Source of the DNA: Isoetes taiwanensis
Taxonomy: Eukaryota; Streptophyta; Lycopodiopsida; Isoetales; Isoetaceae
Assembly (NCBI GenBank): GCA_021234155.1
Contig: JAJEKV010000004.1
Coordinates: 28,669,698-28,733,697 of the forward strand
Direction of reading: 5' to 3'
Length of the DNA: 64,000 nucleotides
The position numbers and the translations under genes were made by a program. Under the pieces are notes generated by a model. The model had not been told where the DNA came from. It worked only from the letters and a program-made list of their open reading frames with translations, and did not search any database. Shown piece after piece: positions 14,420 to 25,998 of this stretch; the stretch's first letter is position 1, and each line of letters starts with the position of its first letter.

Positions 14420-16593
14420 GCCTCGCTTGGACACAAGTTTATCGGTGTTCTTCAGAGCAGCTAGGCAGCAGCGATATGCAGCATCTATGGTGTCCGTTGC
14501 CTTGCCTGATGGCCGGACTTTGGAGGATCCCGCTGATTTGCAGAGGTATGTGCATGCTCATTTCTCAGGGTTTTTCACACAGCGCACTCTTCCTTATGAG
14601 CAGGAGATGCAGGAGCTTGTTTTGGGGGCTGTTAAGCCATCTATTCTGCCTCACCAGCGTGAGAGCTTGGAGCAGGAGCTCTCCAGAGAGGATTAGCGGA
14701 GGCATGTATGTGCATGGCCAAGGATAAATGTCCTGGGCTAGATGGCATCCCTGTGGAGTTCTTTCAGACTTATTGGGAGTGGGCTGGTGAGTCTGTGTAC
14801 CAGGTGTATCTTGAGTTGCTGCAGTATGGATAGGATCTTGAATACCGCATGCATTTCCTTGATTCCTAAGGTTAAGCAGCCTTCTGCTATTAATGATTGG
14901 AGGCCTATCTCCTTGTTGTCCTCTGTGTATAAGATTATTGCGAAAGCCCTGGCAGAGAAGTTGAAGCCGGTGTTGACTTCTTCCATTAGTAAGATGCAGT
15001 CTGGGTTTGTCCCTGGGAGGAACATTTTGACTACTATTGCCGCAGCTTATGAGGGCTTTTATTGGGCCAGGAGAACAGGTCAAGGCATTGCCTATCTTAA
15101 GCTTGACTTTGCCAAAGCTTACGATAGTGTCCGTTGGGAGTTCTTGTCTGCCATGATGTTAGCGTTGGGCTGTGGTCCACGCTTTACAGAGACAGTCATG
15201 AAGCTGCATAGGTTAGCACGGGCTACGGTGATGTGCCAGGGTGAACCCTCCCCCTTTTTCTCCTTAGGCCGTTTTTGTTTACGATTGTGGCGAGGGCACT
15301 GTCTCAGTTGTTTTTTACTGCAGTGGAGGAGGTGGTGGTGGATGGGCTTCGGATGCAGGATGGTAGCCAACAGATTATTAACCAGTTTGCCGATGACACT
15401 TTCCTCTTCTTGGTGGCAGAAGAGAGGAATTTGCGGAATGTGAAGGGTTTGCTGGATACTTTCTCCTTGGCCTCAGGCATTCTTCTGAATTGGCGTAAGT
15501 GCTCCGCATTATGGGCCCAGCTGACTCCGCCTCCCCCTTGTTTGGCTCTATTCCCTTGGAAGGTGCTTCCAGATAATGTGTGTACTAAGCTATTGGGTAT
15601 TCCCTTTGGAGGAGATGTTTCCATGGAGAGGGTGTGGGATGCGATTTTGCAGGGGTTGCAGAAACACCTCAATTGGTGGAAGGGTAGCAAATTGTCCATA
15701 GCAGGTAGGATCACTATTGCCAAGTCAGTACTTTGTAGCACTCATGTGTATACAGCATCTGCGATGTTAGCTCCTGAGGGTAAGATACAGGCTTTGGATA
15801 AGATTGTTCGAAATTTTGTGTGGGGCGGGGATGATGAAGGGGCGGTTGTTAAAGTGGCTTGGTGGAAATGTCTCCGCCCCCGGGAGGATGGCGGCTTGGC
15901 CATTCTGGATTTGGCACTGCATAGTAAGGTGTTGGTCTCCAAGTTTGTTTGGAGCATTCTGCAGGATGGAGCATCTTCTCCTGGTGCGGCGCTGTTGTTG
16001 CAGTCTCTTCGCCATTGTGTGGCATTTGGGAAGCCGTCTGTGCATGTGGAGTTGCCCTGGGCACTGTTGTATGGTCTCCGGCCTTTCCCACATGCATCCC
16101 CTTTTCTCACGGGGGTGTTGCGGGCTTGGGATCATGTGCGTGTGCTCTTCCAGCTAGATTATGCCTCAGTTTATCACCACTCTTCTCCTTTCTTGTGGGT
16201 TCCTCTACCCCCTGCGCACTTGCCCTTGGCTGCCACTGTGCATGCTCGGACGCAGGCCCGTTGGAGGCGAGCTGCTGTGCTCACCTTGGAGGATTGGTAT
16301 TGGGGTGGTCAGCTAGCTTCGTGGGAGTTCTTTCAAGCTCGCTTTCGCTTGAGGGGCAGTGACAGGGCTATCTGGGAACAAGTGGCGGGGAGTATTCCGC
16401 TACACATACCTATAGTCCCTCAGGATGATGTGGTGGTGCAGGTTTGGAAGGTTCATCCGGATGTTGTGTCTTCTTGTTTTGTGCGGTCTTGTTACCAGGT
16501 GCTGGCTATTCATGACACACTACCCCCTTCAGGCACGTGGTCTCTGCAGCTTTCGGGTTCTCGATGGCGCTCGGTTTGGACGTGGACATGGAG
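14420..16593 (+). pseudogene. LINE-2 ORF2 remnant, left part (RT)
   Basis: Reading frames in order: 14376-14696 (SVFFRAARQQRY, ALPDGRTLEDPADLQRY); 14742-15443 (SLIPKVKQPSAINDWRPISL, QSGFVPGRNIL, LKLDFAKAYDSVRW); 15275-16603 (FADDTFLF catalytic box near 15390, SIAGRITIAKSVL, VWGGDDEGAVVKVAWW). Frameshifts near 14690, 14840 and 15260 break the gene, and the motif around PLSP-F of the RT palm is garbled. It ends abruptly at the 9.4-kb transposon. Confidence 0.9.
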
Positions 16594-16704
16594 AACAAGG
16601 TGACCTAGCAAACGCACTAATGACCTGTGGTGCAATTGCAGATTCCTTTTTCAAAAACACGTAAATTCTGCATTTTAGCCAGTTTTAAAAAAAAAACAAG
16701 CCCA

Positions 16705-17010
16705 AAAAACGCAGTGAGCCTAAAAAAAGTCCACATTTCGAAGACAAGCAGGTTTTCTTGGTTTTGGACAAAGTAAGAAACACACTTTTTGGAGCACCAA
16801 AATGCAACTGAAAAGAGAAAAGCCTATGCGCACATAGACAAGATAGTCCTTATTAAATTATAATTTATTTAAAAAACACAGTGAGCCTAAAGAAATCCAC
16901 ATTTCGAAGACAAGCAGGTTTTCTTGTTTTTAGACAAAGTAAAAGACAAACTTTTTAGACCAACAAAATGCAACTGAAAAGAGAAAAGCCTATGCGCGCA
17001 TAGACATGAC
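16705..17010. repeat. Subterminal tandem duplication, unit about 165 bp
   Basis: Near the left end of the 9.4-kb element, two direct copies contain CAGTGAGCCTAAA, then CCACATTTCGAAGACAAGCA, GGTTTTCTTG, then CAAAATGCAACTGAAAAGAG and a palindrome. The palindrome is CTATGCGCACATAG in the first copy (16824-16837) and CTATGCGCGCATAG in the second (16990-17003). Confidence 0.8.
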
Positions 17011-17083
17011 AGTCATTAATGGAATATATTACATTTAAAATAGGGCACATAGAATAAAATGTTTAATTTTTTGCACAGAATTT

Positions 17084-20000
17084 TTAAATATCTAAAGGAA
17101 CATCCTTTGCAGGTATTTCCTCATCTGATTCAGAACCTTGGGGAGACTTAGGATTAGTAGCTTGTAGTTTTTCCTCAGACTCAGCCGAACTTTTATCCTC
17201 TGTGACCTTAAGTGGATCTTCGACGGGAATCAATTCAACATAGTCAGCTTGATCGTCAGTGTTCCCGATAAGAGGAGGCACAGGCTCTGAACAGGAGAAG
17301 GCCGGAACACCATCCTTATCCTTGATCCCAAGTTCCTGTTTTTCGTCTGGCAAGCTGTGTAAGGAACTGACTCGTCGACGTCAATGGCTACGCAGTTGCG
17401 TCCCTTCTGTAGTGCACAAGCCAACGTGGTGCCAGATCCTGAAAAGGCGTCAACGACCCAATCTCCAGGTTGCGAGAACATCTCCAGAAGCGTGCTAATT
17501 AGTCTCTGAGGCTTCTGGTAGGGATTGATAATGCGTCCCTGGTGAACTGGGTCTGTAAGGTTTTGTAAGACTGCTGGGCATTGAAAAGCATTGCGAAAAT
17601 CCATGCCAGTAGTATTATAGTGCATTTGGCTTCTCTGAGCCTATGTGAATCTGCTCCCACACGTTGACAAGTCTAGCACCACCACCTCCCCTAATATTCG
17701 TCTTTAACCTGCAAAGAAAGGAATCACTTTTGTATTCGCTATGCCCGCATGGAGAAAACAACTAGACACTTACCATATGGCAGCCTCGTAACCAGCCTTG
17801 CAGTGGGTCTTCATAGCCGCTTGCACCATACCGGCCTGGTTAGTGGAGTGGAAGACGACAATCCTCCAGAGCGGAGCAGTGTTCATCTTAACAAACCTCC
17901 CCAAAAAAGAATCAAACTCGGCGTACGTAAATGGTGAGTCATCACCACAGCTGTCAGGCAACTTAAACCCGTAAGGTATGTCAGCTATGCACAAGGAATA
18001 GTTGCCAGGTCTCAAAGTGTGGTCAAGTTTGACACAATTCCCACGATACACCTGATAAAGACAATTTTGGCCAAACATATCAAATCTTTCAAACTCCGAA
18101 GGCACCAAACTCTGCTCAGCTTCTTGAGACTTTTTCAGCTTTGACCGCTCCTCCTTAGCTAGCCGGACCATGTTTAAAAATCCAGGTGGCATGGGGTCTT
18201 TCTTTTTCTGAAAGCCGAAAAAATTTGTAAGAAACAAAACGACAGCTCCCTCACTCCTGTGCTATACGCGCATAGCATGGGAGTGAGGGACCTGTGATAG
18301 TGCTATGCGTGCATAGCACTACCACAAGGTCCCTTAATCACATGCTATGCGCGCATAGCACAGGTACAAAAATGAATACCTTAACTCAAGCAGCAAGAAG
18401 GAGAAACAAATGACATACCCAGTTGGTAAAGTTGGTGGCATATTGGTTTATTTTTTCGTCTGAGGACCACGTGGGGTATAATTCCCGCACCTTCTCCCAG
18501 TTGTCGCAGTTGAGGTGAACCATTAACTGTTGCTGACAGAGTACACAATCTTTTTGGCTGCAAACGTTCCAAGAGGTTAATAACAAACATTGGAAAAAAT
18601 GTGAGTGTGTAATGTAGGCTTACTGCTTAAATTCTCTCTGTATCTCTTCCAGAGTGAACTGTTTATCAACAACCTTTTGCAGGACCTCACAAACTTTGTC
18701 AACATTTTTTAGGCCTTGCATTTCACGCCAGGCCATTATGCCCATATCCTTTTGCTTTGCGGGATCATTTTTTTTCCTCTTGGAATCCGTTGATTTGCCT
18801 TTAGTTTTTAAAGTGCCCTCAGAGAACATGTCAAAAATTTTTTCTTGTAGCTCCCAGACCTAACATAGAAAACAACAAGCATGTTAAAATAATATTTAAG
18901 AGCCATGCGGGCATAGCCAAAGGCGAAGGTCGAGAGAAAATACTTACACGTCCATGCCGGAAAGCTAACTGAAAATAATTATCATATTTTATAAGAGATG
19001 CTCTGGCATCTGAGGTGGAGTAAGTTAGGCAGCATTCAGTAGCGCACTGTTCTTTTAAGGCCAGGTACAGAGCCTGGTCTTCCTTAATATCTTTCTCACC
19101 TTGGTGCTCTGAACGGAAGAGTTCATATTCCTTGTGCATGAATTTAATTTTATCTGTGAAGCTCATACTCATCCGATACTCATTGTTCATGTTGTGGCTC
19201 ATTGCAAACAGCTTTGCCTCTGAGTCAGTGACACCCACGTAAACAAAGGCAAAGATTTGTGAGAAGCAGTGCTCCTTTGTTTCCTTGTATAGCTGTCTTC
19301 TTGCCTTGAAACTGTGGGTGCCCCCTAAAACATAGTATCTGTAGTTCTCGTCCTCTTCCTTAACGAACAGCTCCTTATCATTGCACTGGGCAGGATCAAC
19401 TATACAAATATGAGGAGTTGTTTCTGCATTCGGCCTGTCTCTTATTCTTTCTTTCGGTCTGCGGTTAAGTGGCCCTTTGAATTTTTCGGACCTGGGTTGT
19501 CTTACACCTTGCTCATCCTTAGGTGCAAGCTTTACGATCTGAGAGAGATGCATGATGCCGGGCACGCGACATCTCAGCTCGATTTCCTCGAGCTTCTTAC
19601 TTGCCATATCCTTCTCCTTGCTTGCTATCTTCGTGCCCGGTCCTGACGGCAAAGCTTGCTTAAGGGCCTTCCTGGCAGCTTTTGAGAGCGGAGGTGATGT
19701 GGTTGTAACCAGGCCAGCCTTGTAGTAATTTCTTTTACCTTTTTTTTTAGGTGGCTCCTCCTCTTCCTCCTCTACATCCTCCTCTTCGATTTCCTCTACT
19801 TCTTCCTCCTCTTCCTCATCTTCGACCACTTGCAAAGTGGCTCCCCGTTAACTTTGGAAAGGGTAAGTTTTGGGAGCAGAGGGCATTGCATCTTTCAATA
19901 ATTTAGGAACAGAGGCACTAGAAGTTAAAATAGGATCCTTGCACAATAGCAGGTCCTTCAAAATGGTGACAAGATCCCGCAAAGAAACATTCCATTAGCA

Positions 20001-20469
20001 AGAAGAACATTAAAGTTTCTCAAGCTATGCAAGATAGACAATACTTACAATTTTTGCTTTCATTCGGCCCGAATGTAACCCCTGCATGTCCGGGGAGACG
20101 ACGGTGAGCTTAAAGAAATGGGGATCCACCGAGTAAACATGTTGAGACCCCTTTAGTCGATGTGGTGCGGTTAATATGAAACATACCGAAAGAGTTTCCA
20201 GATCTATTAACCCGCCACATCTCTTGAAGCTGTCCAAGTCTTTGGGTTCTTTACCAAACCGTCACAAATGTACAGATACAAAAATGGGCGTTCACAGTGC
20301 TCACCAGTTCCTCTTACAAGTAGCCTTCGCTGGTCCTTACAGAAATAGGAACCGCCCTCGCTGATCATGAAAGGTGTAGGTGCATCATCCTTGGTTGATT
20401 CTTATCCTTTGTCGGCTTCCTCTTCTTGGCAGCCTTGTGGGAGGAGTTCGCCCAGGATTTTTCTTGGTT
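17084..20469 (-). pseudogene. ParB-like domain plus beta-class DNA N6/N4-methyltransferase gene
   Basis: Exons read with phase-consistent GT-AG junctions: about 19985-18948, 18859-18624, 18557-18419, 18207-17774 and 17708-17084. One or more 5' exons lie around 20469-20049. The second-largest product part holds an acidic stretch and a KKKGKR basic patch. Then follows a ParB/sulfiredoxin-like core (YYVLGGTHSFKARRQLYKE, later AMSHNMNNEYRM). A small Cys segment (CVLC then HLNC) follows. The methyltransferase has motif IV IADIPYGF in the fourth exon. Motif I, VVDAFSGSGTTLACA, lies in the last exon after NPYQKPQRLI. The IV-before-I order is the beta class. Predicted role is adenine-N6 or cytosine-N4 methylation of DNA. 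Defects are one in-frame TAA near 19845 and two apparent frameshifts in the last exon (near 17610 and 17350). It may thus be a recent pseudogene, or some of these marks may be splice boundaries I mis-set. Confidence 0.8.
18262..18358. repeat. Three intronic palindromes, 41-42 bp apart
   Basis: CTATACGCGCATAG (18262-18275), CTATGCGTGCATAG (18303-18316) and CTATGCGCGCATAG (18345-18358) lie in the intron between the third and fourth firm exons (18208-18418) of the methyltransferase gene. Each is embedded in a larger GTGCTATG-CATAGCAC type dyad. Spacing is close to the 40 bp seen in the divergent promoter array. Confidence 0.9.
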
Positions 20470-20538
20470 CTACAAGACGGAAAAAAACATATTAAAAGAC
20501 AGCTAGAAAATGCACAAGCAGATCTAACATTGGAAAGG

Positions 20539-20761
20539 CCTATGCGCGCATAGACAACCGCAAGTAAAAAACATTATGCCTATGCGCGCATAGACAATGG
20601 CAGGATAAAAGGTAAATGCCTATGCGCGCATAGACAAGGGATGCTAAAAATGTTGGTGCCTATGCGCCATAGACAGACAATACAAGAAGAGAAAAACAAT
20701 ATGCCCGCGGCGCAAGAAAACAATAATAAGAAAAAAGACAGAATGCCTATGCGTGCATAGA
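20539..20761. promoter_or_regulatory. Iteron array: CTATGCGCGCATAG palindromes at 40-bp steps
   Basis: Copies begin at 20540, 20580 and 20620 with exactly 40-bp steps. A one-base-short copy lies at 20660, a degenerate one near 20703 and CTATGCGTGCATAG at 20748. Each is preceded by G and followed by ACA. The array lies between the 5' end of the minus-strand methyltransferase gene and the 5' end of the plus-strand transposase gene. It is therefore placed like an operator or replication/partition-type site. Binding by the ParB-like protein or the transposase is inference. Confidence 0.85.
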
Positions 20762-21225
20762 CAATAAAAGAAAAAAACACTAAATGCTACTGCCCAAGAA
20801 GAAATTCGGCAAACAAGATGTCCAAAAAGCTAAAAATCAACTATCTTTGACACTAACCAAAAGTCCCTAAACGGGCAACATTTGGTATAAAATTTCTAAC
20901 AAGTACTGTAAACTGCTACTGGTTGAGATGTTTACGTACCTTCCACCTGACATGTTTGGCGACGCTATGCAGAAGTCTATGGAGATGCTACAGTTCGAAA
21001 CGGAAGAGCAAAATTCTAGGCGAGGTCGAGCGCCTTGGAGTATCGTCTGTATGTGCAAATGCCTCCATATGTTTTCGTATTTATATTGTGTTACGTACTT
21101 TGCTTTTCGTCTATGAATTTTTGCATACACATCTAGTTTTGATTGCAGGCATTGGCTTGTGGAGATAATGTCTAGTATTTTGTAATGTTTCTTGGTTGTG
21201 TGGCATCTACTTTTCGTATTGAAGT

Positions 21226-21318
21226 ATGCGCACATAGACATATGTTTTCCCTGTCTATGCGCGCATGGGCAACTAGTGTATATGACGATTGTAACTGCTT
21301 TTCTATGCGCGCATGGGC
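21226..21318. repeat. Three palindromes in the first transposase intron
   Basis: Variants of the same dyad occur near 21226 (TATGCGCACATAGACA), 21254 (CTATGCGCGCATGGGC) and 21303 (same form). They lie inside the presumed intron 21048-21383. Two more, TTATGCGGGCATAGCACGG and CTATGTGCGCATAGCAGG, lie at about 22444 and 22484 in the next intron (about 22391-22749). Confidence 0.8.
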
Positions 21319-23802
21319 ATGTAGACTTGCAGGTTTGAAGGGAGAGGGTTTAATGGCTGAAACAAGTCACTCTTCCTTGTGCAGCAATGGAGAGCGACGT
21401 CGAAGACGTTTTTACTTCAACTCCTCCTGTTAATGTGGCAATATTGACTCGTGTTCGTTACAACACACCCACACCAGTAGGTGACGATGAAGAAGACTTC
21501 GATACGCTTCTCCCGGATGCTACCTCCTCCACACCGTCTCCCTCCCCTTTACACCTACTGCGTGTGTCTACCTCTTTTCAAACTCCATCTCCAAAACACG
21601 TTTTACAGCATTCGTCCGTTTTTAAAACACTCTCCCCCCCCGCCACAATCACGAAGTATCTTCTCCTCTTCCCCTACTCAACGTACTCACTCTATTTTTG
21701 ATACTCCTTCACCTCTCCAGGAACTACACGAATCATTGCAATATATTGTAGATTCTACGGAGGGAGTGTTAGTAGCGTCTCTTTGGCCCTTCTCTAACGT
21801 AAAGGGCTTCGAGGAAGACCTTCAAGTTACGAAAAGAAAGTCGAGAACATTATTTGTCGACAGACTGCACTTCCGTTGAGGGCTTACAAGGTTGATGATC
21901 CCGTGTTTGAAGACGCAGATTCGCACTCTCGAAAGACCTACCACGAACATTAATCGCCGAATAAAAGTCCCGCAAATTAAAAACCCATACAAAGAAGGCT
22001 AAAAGATTTAAGAGGGATCCCACAGTAAAAGCTTTTAGAACTGTTATGCGCGAGCGATTGGTGGGACTGTCTTACATGAGAAAGCCGAGGAGACCGAATT
22101 GTCGAGAAAAAATGCTTACGTGCCTTTACATTTTCGCCTTTAAGGCACATAAGACAACGGTTACATCCTCAGATATCATCCGACAGACAAGATACTAAGA
22201 AGGAAGTCTACAAAGATGTACAAGGATCTTTTCTAGAGTTCAAGTCAGAAGTTCATATCCTATTCCTACTTCTTGAGGTTGTGGAAGCAAGAATTTAATC
22301 TTGTTAGGATTCCGAACAGATTTTCGGTGTGTACTAGCTGCTCCACATTAAAGGAAAAACGATCAATGGCAAAGGATATTCTAGAAAAAAGTACGTCCCT
22401 TTCGTCTAATCCCTTCTCGGTAGCACGGCTAGAGACATTGTCTTATGCGGGCATAGCACGGCTATTTAGTCTTGAGTTTGTCTATGTGCGCATAGCAGGT
22501 CTTTTTAATCTTGTAGTACAGCAAGTCTCTTCAATCTTGTAGCTTAAGCCCTTCCCCACAGTAGCTCGCCTATCTGCGGCAAGATAGCACGTCTACAAAA
22601 GCTTTTGCAGTTCTGTGGAGCCCATGTTGCTTCAAAGGTAATCGACAAGCTTTGCCTATCTTGGCCTTATAGCACGGCTACAAAAGCTTAGCTGCAGTTC
22701 TGTGGAGCCTTACTATTGCTTCAAGGTACTGACTAATGTCCTTAATTGCAGATCAGATAACTCAAGAGTTGCAAGTTCACAGAGAGGCTCAAGCCTTGGA
22801 GAGAAAGAAGCTAGCAAAACATAGAAAGAAATCTTTGGAGAGGCCACTCGAATATATGTCTGTGGTGGTAGACGGCATGGATCAAAAGAAGACGTCACTT
22901 CCCCATTTTGTAAATGTTCCAAAGGATTTAGATGAATCCAATTTTTTGAGGCTTCATTTGGTTGGGGCGATGATCTTTCATGGTGTTGTACAGTGCAGAG
23001 TATTTTTGACCTATCCAAATATACACAGCGATCCTAACCTCACGGTGACAATACTAAATAAGATTTTGCTGGCAAAGGAGAAGCTGCCTCCAGTGTTGTA
23101 CATACAGTTAGACAATACTACTAGAGAAAACAAAAACCAAGTTTTATTTGCTTATTGCGCAATGCTGGTCGAGCTGGGTATCTTTCGAAAGGTCAAGGTT
23201 GGTTTCTTACTTGTGGGCCACACCCATGATCAGATAGACCAAATGTTCAGCAGATTTTCTGTGCGGTTGCGAAGGAAAAAAGCATTTTGTCTACACTCCT
23301 TGTGCAGTGTGATTGAGCAAGCTTACAATCCAACTCCAGTTGTCGAAGTGCTTAGCGAGACTTTTGATTTTCGTGAGTTTGTTTTCCAGCGTCATGGTGA
23401 TACAGGTCCTGCTATCCATAAGTTGAATAATTTGACATTTCAACATCATGTAAAAAAATTTCTCAAGGACGGTAAAGCACAACTTCAAGGGAAGTACTTT
23501 GTCACCTCCCAAACTTGGCAGCCTGAGGCAGGCCTACAATATTTAAAATATGTTCCTGAAACTAAGGTAATGAGAAGGGCTATTCAGCAGCCACTGAAAA
23601 GTGCCATAGACTACACAGAAAAGAACAAGGACAAAAATCCCTTCGTCTTACTGACCAGCATGGAGAAAAGTATAAGGTCAGGTTTTAAGTACTTCAGTGA
23701 GGAGGACAAAGGCTGGTGGGAGAATTTCTTTTCAATAATGCAGGATGTAACTAAATCCCTCAACAGCATCTCCCTGGAAGTTGCTTTTTGTTGGCCTGGT
23801 AC

Positions 23803-24773
23803 CAGTGCTCGAATTTGACGGCCCGCCCTTAATTTTCTAGGGACGGGCAAAATAATTTTCAAGCCTTTCAAATGCAATAAAAAAATTTAAGATGACAGAA
23901 ACCAGTTTTTTTCCTCAGAGAACATAGATGGATAGAAAGAAGGCTACTCAAGTGGCATTCTCTCCTTTGTTTCGCTTCATACCAGTCCTTGTAATATGCT
24001 TGCCAATCTATGCTTTGAAAAGGTTCATTCCACAATGATACACACATTGTGGCATCAAGTGTTTCTAAGTTCATGCTCGATCTTATAGCATTCTTAATAG
24101 CATTTTGACGGAGAAACCTCTCTCACAAGACAATATTGCCATAATTTCATCAATGCTAGAAACTTTCCCACCAATTGTCACATGTTCCATTTTCATCTTT
24201 ACAAATAGTCCAAGCCATCACCATCCCTTTGTTCTTGGCAGCCCTGAAAAGTGTCTCAACAAAATCCTCCCTCTCATTCAACATCTAGCCATGCCTACTT
24301 TTGAAGCAAACTTGGCAAGCAATTTTTCCAACCATTCTTTAGTCTTGTCATCCCTTACAACGTCATCCACAGCATATGCAGATGGATTGAAGAACTTCAT
24401 GGCATTAAATATCTTACTCACATCTTCAAACCTCCTAGCAAGTGCATCCAATACAGCATGCAAGATATTTCTAAGTCAATGGTTCATTGGTTTCTAAAAT
24501 GTATATTTTAAATTCGTTTAGAAAATGGGATAATAATCTATTTCAATATAAATTATAGAATTTATATATAGATATAGACCAGACTAGAAAAAATGACGGG
24601 CATTTCTCTGTTCCTAGCCTTTCAAATGACAAGTATGTCTTGTAGTTGTCATTCCGTATGACGGGCAATTGCCCAAGTGCTGCCCTTCATTTGCCATACA
24701 AAAAAATTTTCCACCTGTTTTGACGGGCAAAAATCCAAAAAACAGGCGTGAAAGCCGTCAAATTCGAGCCCTG
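23803..24773. mobile_element. 971-bp hAT relic inside the transposase gene
   Basis: The ends are CAGTGCTCGAATTTGACGGC and its inverted mate, whose reverse complement is CAGGGCTCGAATTTGACGGC. They are flanked by the perfect 8-bp TSD CCTGGTAC (23795-23802 and 24774-24781). TIRs beginning CAGNG with 8-bp TSDs are diagnostic of hAT. The host frame reads PGT on one side and continues PGTQVHP on the other when the element is removed. Confidence 0.95.
23868..24497 (-). pseudogene. hAT transposase C-terminal fragment
   Basis: Minus-strand pieces read ALARRFEDVSKIFNAMKFFN near 24460-24400, then LSCERGFSVKMLLR near 24140-24090, and MNLETLDATMCVSL at 24074-24030. The CERGFS box followed by a TLD-MCVSL segment is typical of the hAT C-terminal dimerisation region. 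The rest of the protein is deleted, so this is a non-autonomous deletion derivative. It is not the same copy as the relic at 10.1-11.2 kb. Confidence 0.75.
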
Positions 24774-25613
24774 CCTGGTACTCAGGTTCATCCCCTTGTT
24801 GAGGCAGACCAAGGAATTTCAAAGGGTTCCGTGTTCTGCAGTACTGAAGTCAACAAGGAACCTGATCGTGTAATGTACCTCGGAAGTAGACGTGCCTTGA
24901 AAAAGAACCAAGGCCAAACTCCAGAAAAACTAGCAGATTTGAGTAAGGGGATGCTTATAGCTGTACCTTCGACTGACGATGACGAAGAGCGTCCTTTCTG
25001 GATTGCGCGGGTTAAAGACATTGTACTCAAAGACAATCTCCCTTCAGTAGTGAAAGTTCACTGGTACCAAACTAAGGATACAGATCCTTTTGTTGGTCGG
25101 TATGATCCTGTGATAATTCCTTTCAAGAAGGGCCGGAAAACGATGAATAAGAATCACATGGACAATCTGGACCTGAACGAAACTCAAGTGCTGGCTTATG
25201 ATTTCACACTCAAGGTTGATAACAGGCTACGGCGCACAACGGTTAATCCATCAAGTCTTTTCGCGGAAGATAGTTTGACGAAGCTTCTCAGGATGAGGAC
25301 AGTGTTCCAGGGTTAGCTCTTCGACCACTTCAAGCGACAATGAGGAGAGTGGCAACGAGGACAGTGGTGACGAGTCTGAAGGATTTGACGAGTATAACGA
25401 CATTCCTAATCCTGCTCTTCTCAAAGGCCGTAAACTTCTTGTATAATGTAAATGTGGGCACATCGTTACCTCCTAGTTTTGGCTAGAGTTTTTTGTACAT
25501 GTTGAAGGCCTTTGCCAAGCTCGCATAGCTTCTTCCAAGTTTATCCATGTTTTTTCATGTCTTGTATAAGCGCCAAATGCTATCAGACATGTTAGTTAGG
25601 TCTTCTATGTTTT

Positions 25614-25640
25614 TCTGTTGCCTATGCGCGCATAGCACCT
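25614..25640. repeat. Right-side palindrome of the 9.4-kb element
   Basis: CTATGCGCGCATAG occurs at about 25622-25635, downstream of the transposase stop and 360 bp from the right end. With the copies near the left end, palindromes thus flank the cargo on both sides. Confidence 0.85.
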
Positions 25641-25998
25641 TGTGGTTCATCTTGAGTAATAACAAATAGATACGCCTAGATTTGCCAATCTTGCTTTCAT
25701 TTCTTGTGAAGATTTTAATGGTTCTTTAATTTTGCTAGTTTTCTTGTATTTCCAAGATTTTCCTAAAAGGTGACTCCAATTTTACAGCTTGTTTGAGTGT
25801 CTAGAATTCACAAAACAACAAACGTTTTCTAATTTTGGACCAAAAAAGGGGTGTCGCAAATCAAAATTGAGAGCTGTTTTTTCAATTGACCCCCCAAAAG
25901 TGGCAATTTTTAGGTTTTTTTTAGGGAATCTTTGAAAGATTCCTTTTTGTGGTGCAAACGCAGGTCATTAGTGTATTTGCTAGGTCACCTTGTTGGAG

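Follow-up and report, generated by a model that had tools for sequence, protein, structure and literature searches.

Sola1-1_Ec32, a giant DNA transposon of 21.5 kb from the brown alga Ectocarpus, encodes, besides its transposase, an opposite-strand protein in which a ParB-like part is joined to an N4C/N6A methyltransferase, according to the accessible text of PMC12477816. The same text attributes similar ParB-like/methyltransferase proteins, accessory proteins of the same kind, to transposons of green and red algae (PMC12477816, refs 50, 51; ref. 51 is Petroll et al. 2025). We analyzed a DNA transposon with the same gene arrangement, located at positions 16594-25994 of a 64,000-nucleotide stretch of the genome of the vascular plant Isoetes taiwanensis (contig JAJEKV010000004.1, positions 28,669,698 to 28,733,697; hereafter, the window). 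The first of the two references on algal transposon proteins, ref. 50, is reportedly Iyer et al. 2011. The initial annotation of the window knew of no described plant superfamily with this gene pair; given the report in the accessible part of PMC12477816, the pair is not undescribed and the kind of element is already known. I. taiwanensis copies that contain both genes differ from Sola1-1_Ec32 in their length of 8.8-9.8 kb, in their vascular plant host and in the presence of palindrome arrays, of which the accessible text on Sola1-1_Ec32 makes no mention. What is new here are the arrays of the palindrome CTATGCGCGCATAG and a distinct palindrome in one subfamily, C.

The arrays have a parallel in the VANDAL elements of Arabidopsis, which are MuDR transposons (PMC12730594). 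These elements combine an accessory protein, VANC, with short family-specific motifs. The motifs stand in tandem and in one orientation, within introns and in non-coding DNA upstream (PMC5735166), and diverge between related families (PMC5735166, PMC10398659); an accessory protein and diverging, family-specific tandem motifs in non-coding DNA are seen here as well. In a further parallel to VANDAL21, motifs are retained by I. taiwanensis copies without genes, and arrays lie in introns and between genes. VANC, however, brings about a loss of methylation, the accessible text of these papers (PMC5735166, PMC10398659) does not present it as a ParB-methyltransferase, and its motif, YAGTATTAY (PMC5735166), is non-palindromic, unlike CTATGCGCGCATAG. 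Phage and bacterial fusion proteins have, as here, a ParB-like part followed by a permuted amino-methyltransferase (accessible text of PMC12704722). The I. taiwanensis gene differs from them in being an intron-bearing gene of a plant transposon, with DIPYG in place of DPPY and with a divergent ParB-like part. Fungal transposons with TET/JBP genes also carry a DNA-modifying enzyme, which acts on pre-existing methylcytosine, unlike the marking proposed below (PMC12730594, in part). The bdelloid N4CMT, with the motif SPPY, is a bacterial amino-methyltransferase working in a eukaryote and is presented as a bdelloid gene rather than a transposon-borne one in the accessible text of PMC8885841. A literature search, mostly of freely accessible texts, returned no recognised work on land-plant cases, on DUF7869 as a transposase or on the palindromes.

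Results

The window carries a damaged copy of a two-gene transposon

The initial annotation described terminal inverted repeats (TIRs), a target site duplication (TSD) and clean repair of the interrupted sequence upon excision, and each of these features was recovered. The element has 34-nt TIRs and is flanked on both sides by the TSD GGAG. When the element and one TSD are removed, the joined flanks form a 402-codon open frame that crosses the junction without a break. The interrupted sequence is a putative long interspersed nuclear element, with a sub-threshold RVT_1 match (E 0.0084).

Two divergent intron-bearing genes were likewise confirmed. An open reading frame (ORF) on the plus strand (22733-23818) matches PF25273, DUF7869 (E 6.8e-52), and an ORF on the minus strand (17230-17640) matches PF01555, N6_N4_Mtase (E 1.2e-15); exon limits were set by hand with the help of splice sites and homologues (Table 1). 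Both genes contain frame breaks, so the window copy is damaged. The 971-bp hAT-like insert that breaks its transposase gene is absent from all seven other both-gene copies described below. Small frame breaks are numerous across copies and may partly be assembly errors. The assembly searched comprises 1,658,258,908 bases in 1,110 contigs; the published I. taiwanensis assembly is given as 1,658.30 Mb in 204 scaffolds and 909 contigs, obtained from nanopore reads with Illumina polishing (accessible text of PMC8566536).

The transposon family is large and includes copies with and without genes

A 19-mer of the TIR, with at most two mismatches, was found at 307+317 places (624) genome-wide, versus 10+5 (15) for a reversed-pattern control. 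Sixteen further TIR pairs were picked from the listed matches and retrieved. Exact 4-bp TSDs flank 15 of them, the only pair without a TSD being L033; two others, L039 and L040, have near-identical flanks and probably represent one insertion that was duplicated. All six searched pieces of both genes are present in seven of the 16 copies, which are about 86-95% identical to the window copy in long aligned stretches. Thus, the many copies with the same ends, 4-bp TSDs and both genes that the initial annotation had proposed to look for do exist, and the window copy is one damaged member of a large two-gene transposon family.

The transposase is missing from the other nine copies, one of which, L045, retains small methyltransferase-like fragments. 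Gene-less copies with the same TIRs had been named in advance as a sign that the genes were a one-off capture. Such copies were found, but next to seven both-gene copies they do not indicate a one-off capture, and we read them as non-autonomous derivatives. Among 30 single-end loci (at most 3 kb), 11 contain part of one gene or the other; some of these loci are ends of the same 16 copies. One copy with the same TIRs and no gene pair contains an open frame recognised by eye as pentatricopeptide repeat (PPR)-like (L043:3247-3840), perhaps a captured host gene fragment.

Judged by its TIRs and 4-bp TSD, the element is a DNA transposon of the cut-and-paste type. Members of the Sola superfamily have 4-bp TSDs, and the window copy and 15 of the 16 further copies fit this superfamily in TSD length. 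Two other assignments, to KDZ (Zisupton), with a TSD of 8 bp, and to hAT, with a TSD usually of 8 bp (accessible text of PMC12730594), do not agree with the 4-bp TSD of the main element; the insert nested in the window copy does have an 8-bp TSD.

The two genes are recurrently paired and are under purifying selection

Searches with the methyltransferase exon and the transposase core produced 2,180 and 9,580 first-look candidates, respectively; 150 of each were scored, and all of them matched. First-look candidates are not confirmed matches, and a lone match is no sign that its partner is missing. The 9,580 first-look candidates for the PF25273 core, 150 of them scored, suggest a very large expansion in the genome. 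Between the two sets of 150 scored matches, at least 26 transposase/methyltransferase pairs lie within 15 kb, compared to about 0.4 expected under a uniform model. These pairs involve at least 25 distinct methyltransferase and at least 24 distinct transposase places, window included. Orientation is divergent in 25 of the 26 listed pairs, the exception joining two neighbouring elements.

Among the matches listed, paired methyltransferase exons are 46-99% identical to the window exon. Identity is 90% for L065 (subfamily B), 48-49% for L066 (subfamily C) and 38% for the diverged locus L053. Transposase core pieces of subfamilies A and B and of L053 are 63-80% identical to the window, and the subfamily C core is 73% identical. 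Two direct repeats in L066 (1193-1525 and 4963-5296), 98% identical and ~3.77 kb apart, possibly belong to a long terminal repeat element nested in the subfamily C transposon.

Comparison of 145 methyltransferase codons of the window and L065 revealed 14 changes at first, 7 at second and 72 at third codon positions, with a nonsynonymous divergence (Ka) of 0.068 and saturated synonymous divergence (Ks). For 348 codons of the transposase core, Ka is 0.114 and Ks 1.06. The ParB-like part is more diverged in the same comparison (Ka 0.45, Ks saturated), and the motif I exon of L035 and L065 gives a Ka of 0.35, Ks again being saturated. Inside subfamily A, the Ka/Ks values listed range from 0.05 to 0.64. 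Between subfamilies, both genes are under purifying selection.

Domain composition of the encoded proteins

A search with the transposase gave 19 PF25273 proteins at E up to 1e-10; organism names are attached to three of them, two from Riccia sorocarpa and one from Tribonema minus. The D, D and H-x-H...D positions that are invariant among PF25273 proteins suggest a transposase with an RNase H-like fold; the term 'RNase-H-like' used in the initial annotation is supported to the extent of these conserved acidic motifs.

The second gene appears to encode a ParB-like N-terminal part followed by a permuted (beta-type) amino-methyltransferase domain, an architecture known from phages and bacteria. 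That the element contains a methyltransferase-family gene, as annotated, is borne out by the PF01555 match, by its many copies and by purifying selection. The beta-type order is evident from the position of motif IV ahead of motif I. Motif I, of the FxGxG form, reads FSGSGTT, and DAFSGSGTT was present wherever the motif was found. Motif IV of beta-type amino-methyltransferases is of the DPPY/SPPY/NPPY kind (accessible text of PMC8885841). Here it departs from that kind: subfamilies A, B and C have ADIPYG, and L053 has ADIPHG (the pattern matched in eight of ten loci). Relatives of the methyltransferase include five plant-like proteins with 31-46% identity. Two of these bear the name of the fern Adiantum nelumboides, and the other three have Gb_... 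names, whose prefix we take to stand for Ginkgo biloba. Motif IV is DIPHG, DISQG or EAPYG in plant relatives and DPPY in phage relatives. Two prokaryote-like matches were obtained, only at E about 0.007, and the best PDB sequence match was CcrM (6pbd, E 1.5e-9). The enzyme part gave a profile match of 98.6% probability to phage and bacterial ParB-methyltransferases, with DIPYG aligned with DPPY. A profile search for prokaryotic ancestors yielded no more than three weak matches, all to unnamed methyltransferases (E 1.7e-5 to 3e-3), and the best phage match among those listed (15 of 692) had an E of 4e-5.

The ParB-like part corresponds to the minus-strand ORF 18831-19847. Its only ParB-named library matches have E values of 0.042 and 0.055; Pfam gave no ParB match, the best match of this ORF being the unrelated and sub-threshold IgA0_D2 (E 5.6e-4). 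Profile-profile comparison with the N-termini of phage ParB-methyltransferases gave an E of 0.0012 and a probability of 19%, compared to 0.1% for a reversed control and at most 1.2% across 30 column shuffles, and the alignment is in the expected register, with GGTHS..A opposite AGHGR..A. The annotated ParB-like part is probable; the profile comparison is suggestive of it, and the library matches are weak. Like other ParB-methyltransferase-carrying transposons, the element encodes this protein opposite the transposase, the ParB part being the weakest link in the likeness.

Palindrome arrays are specific to the family and differ between subfamilies

A single locus holds as many as 25 copies of the 14-bp palindrome CTATGCGCGCATAG. 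All 18 window sites fall in the non-coding third according to hand-read coding parts, and none was found in the other 54,649 bases of the window. Family-specific motif arrays in non-coding parts, as described for VANC targets, are thus present, the non-coding position being read from the window copy only. With at most two mismatches, 106 sites were found in the eight both-gene copies, versus 0 for four control palindromes, and 55 in the nine copies without transposase, L045 having none. Genome-wide, CTATGCGCGCATAG has 1,551 exact places, versus 0 for the reversed control and about 3 expected from base composition. All five independent places reached through the palindrome (L047, returned by the search, and L051-L054, four of twelve regions initially chosen) belong to the family, four having a gene piece and L051 a TIR only.

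The spacing of sites is also characteristic. Across 22 loci, with related copies counted separately, 113 neighbour distances fall under 140 bp, and 50 of these measure 40-41 bp; in L065, with 25 sites, 15 of 24 neighbour distances are 41 bp. The diverged L053 has 15 sites, and CTATGCGCGCATAG is common to A, B and L053, although synonymous sites of the window and L065 methyltransferases are saturated. A third palindrome, TCGACTCGCGAGTCGA, lies past the methyltransferase gene of L065 (8789-9007), where four copies follow one another at intervals of about 60 bp.

No CTATGCGCGCATAG site was found in L066, of subfamily C. In this locus, AAGTGTATTCCGGAATACACTT is present four times exactly and once as a variant, three of these being spaced 42 bp apart; the 18-bp core of AAGTGTATTCCGGAATACACTT has 2,585 exact places genome-wide (control 0), and GTGTATTCCGGAATACAC is a candidate palindrome site in this subfamily. 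A 27-nt pattern over subfamily C motif IV (at most three mismatches), which reaches A copies too, matched 72+81 places (control 0). Methyltransferase places from the exon search and from this pattern were compared with palindromes on contigs up to C150 for A sites and up to C64 for C sites. A sites lie 0.3 to about 16 kb from methyltransferase places on contigs C24, C38, C60 and C80, with none near those on C28, C30, C39 and C126. C sites lie within about 3 kb of those on C30 and C39, with none near those on C24, C28, C38 and C60. Both palindromes were found together near no methyltransferase place, and the place on C28 has neither nearby.

Table 1. Features of the transposon copy in the window (window coordinates)
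Feature	Position	Strand	Basis or remark
Left TSD GGAG	16590..16593	.	flank comparison
Left TIR, 34 nt	16594..16627	+	32/34 matches, 94% complementary to right TIR
Tandem duplication, 152 nt, in the 3' non-coding part of the methyltransferase gene near the left end	16723..17040	.	units 86% identical, one palindrome each
Last methyltransferase exon, with S-adenosylmethionine (SAM)-binding motif I DAFSGSGTT	17084..17704	-	two frame breaks
Methyltransferase exon with motif IV (ADIPYG)	17771..18210	-	
ParB-methyltransferase exon	18421..18560	-	splice sites by hand; no counterpart in named relatives
ParB-methyltransferase exon	18626..18859	-	
Exon with ParB-like region (GGTHSFKA) and acidic stretch	18947..19985	-	limits by hand
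N-terminal coding part of ParB-methyltransferase gene	20050..20440	-	by hand; one frame break
Palindrome array between the divergent genes	20540..20760	.	sites at 20540, 20580, 20620, 20747
Transposase N-terminal part	21387..22400	+	by hand; degenerate and frame-broken
DUF7869 (PF25273) transposase core	22753..23801	+	Pfam match and homologues
Nested 971-bp hAT-like insertion breaking the transposase gene	23803..24773	.	ends CAGTGCTC..., 8-bp TSD CCTGGTAC
Transposase C-terminal part	24780..25446	+	by hand
Right TIR	25961..25994	-	34 nt
Right TSD GGAG	25995..25998	.	flank comparison
18 CTATGCGCGCATAG copies between 16824 and 25635	16824, 16990, 17739, 18262, 18303, 18345, 18903, 20540, 20580, 20620, 20747, 21224, 21255, 21303, 22443, 22482, 25515, 25622	.	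at most 3 mismatches

Discussion

The explanation that we favor, with moderate confidence, is that a protein encoded by the element, with the ParB-methyltransferase as the likeliest candidate, would bind at the palindromes and mark copies of its own family. The protein would gather on the palindrome arrays of its own family and methylate or otherwise mark the copies, and this marking would help their expression or movement in the face of host silencing, a role comparable to that of VANC in VANDAL elements. Gene-less copies that retain TIRs and palindromes would use both proteins in trans. The resemblance of the arrays to VANC target arrays (accessible text of PMC5735166) favors self-recognition by an element protein, probably the ParB-methyltransferase. 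More tentatively, the palindromes may form an address code, in which the palindrome of each subfamily is read by its own ParB-methyltransferase, which loads onto the arrays and writes a methyl mark of bacterial type, N6-methyladenine or N4-methylcytosine, on copies of that subfamily alone. Self-marking or escape from silencing had been proposed in the initial annotation and is made more plausible by the arrays; which protein reads the sites, what chemistry it performs and how the element benefits are our inferences.

Several observations weigh against binding and marking by the ParB-methyltransferase. Over eight subfamily A copies, the palindromes show weaker conservation than non-coding blocks elsewhere (column identity 0.874 versus 0.924), and 99.9% of 10,000 random block draws equalled or exceeded them. 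At CG positions, too, identity is lower (0.829 versus 0.854), and two-sided changes preserved the palindrome in just 15 of 30 cases, a weak signal. Two of the eight methyltransferase places checked have no exact palindrome near, those on C28 and on C126 (the latter covered for A sites only). L053 retains the A palindrome, yet its methyltransferase exon is further from the window exon (38%) than that of subfamily C (47%). Catalysis is uncertain because motif IV is DIPYG instead of DPPY, and the ParB homology of the N-terminal part is weak, the match being suggestive but not proof.

The absence of the gene pair from nine of 16 TIR-bounded copies and the PPR-like frame seen by eye in the gene-less copy L043 could be taken to mean that the methyltransferase is passenger cargo from a single capture. 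We reject this as very improbable: the divergent pairing recurs at at least 24 transposase places with methyltransferase identities of 46-99%, and relatives are present in algal transposons and in the proteomes of a fern and other plants. Recurrent pairing together with purifying selection on the methyltransferase gene shows that it is not one-off cargo. A possible but rather unlikely alternative is that the palindromes bind the transposase, as internal counterparts of subterminal repeats or as an autoregulation site, and that the ParB-methyltransferase has another role. Copies without the transposase do hold TIRs and, except for L045, palindromes, and the loci that share CTATGCGCGCATAG have transposase core pieces 63-80% identical to the window; however, most window sites lie between the genes or in introns and few within 400 bp of an end, and the subfamily C core, at 73% no further from the window than L053, goes with a different palindrome. 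Choosing the binding protein from identity and palindrome type was attempted and gave no decision between the ParB-methyltransferase and the transposase.

The methyltransferase-family protein may also have ceased to be an enzyme, binding DNA via its ParB-like part, perhaps with base flipping or reading, and acting as a VANC-like anti-silencing factor or copy-number regulator. The alteration of motif IV at the eight of ten loci where the pattern found it, and in plant relatives, despite a retained motif I and a constrained exon, is consistent with this view. The D, the second P and mostly the Y of motif IV are nevertheless still present, and the SAM-binding motif shows good conservation; such constraint on the two motifs argues for retained chemistry, and we consider loss of the enzyme unlikely. 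Lower still is the probability that the palindromes are a functionless minisatellite propagating itself within the element. Tandem spacing, variable site number and conservation that is lower, not higher, within subfamily A would suit a minisatellite, but CTATGCGCGCATAG is common to subfamilies with saturated or near-saturated synonymous sites, is absent from coding parts of the window copy and is kept in gene-less copies, and the second palindrome, in subfamily C, parallels the first.

On the favored explanation, binding and marking by the ParB-methyltransferase, the product of the bacterial-style accessory gene probably binds DNA and chemically marks it, and the subfamily-specific palindromes suggest that every family tells its own DNA from that of others. 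The presence of relatives in a fern and in another plant proteome (the Gb_ proteins) points to a long history of the system among vascular plants. The wider context is whether eukaryotic transposons write their own DNA marks. The family provides an abundant land-plant case, in which a constrained enzyme-like gene occurs with predicted target sites that are subfamily-specific, have a defined spacing and are present in copies with and without genes; the combination of constrained gene and predicted target sites makes the question of self-marking testable. If the palindromes do serve as an address code, these transposons would run a system of self-recognition and epigenetic marking inside the plant nucleus.

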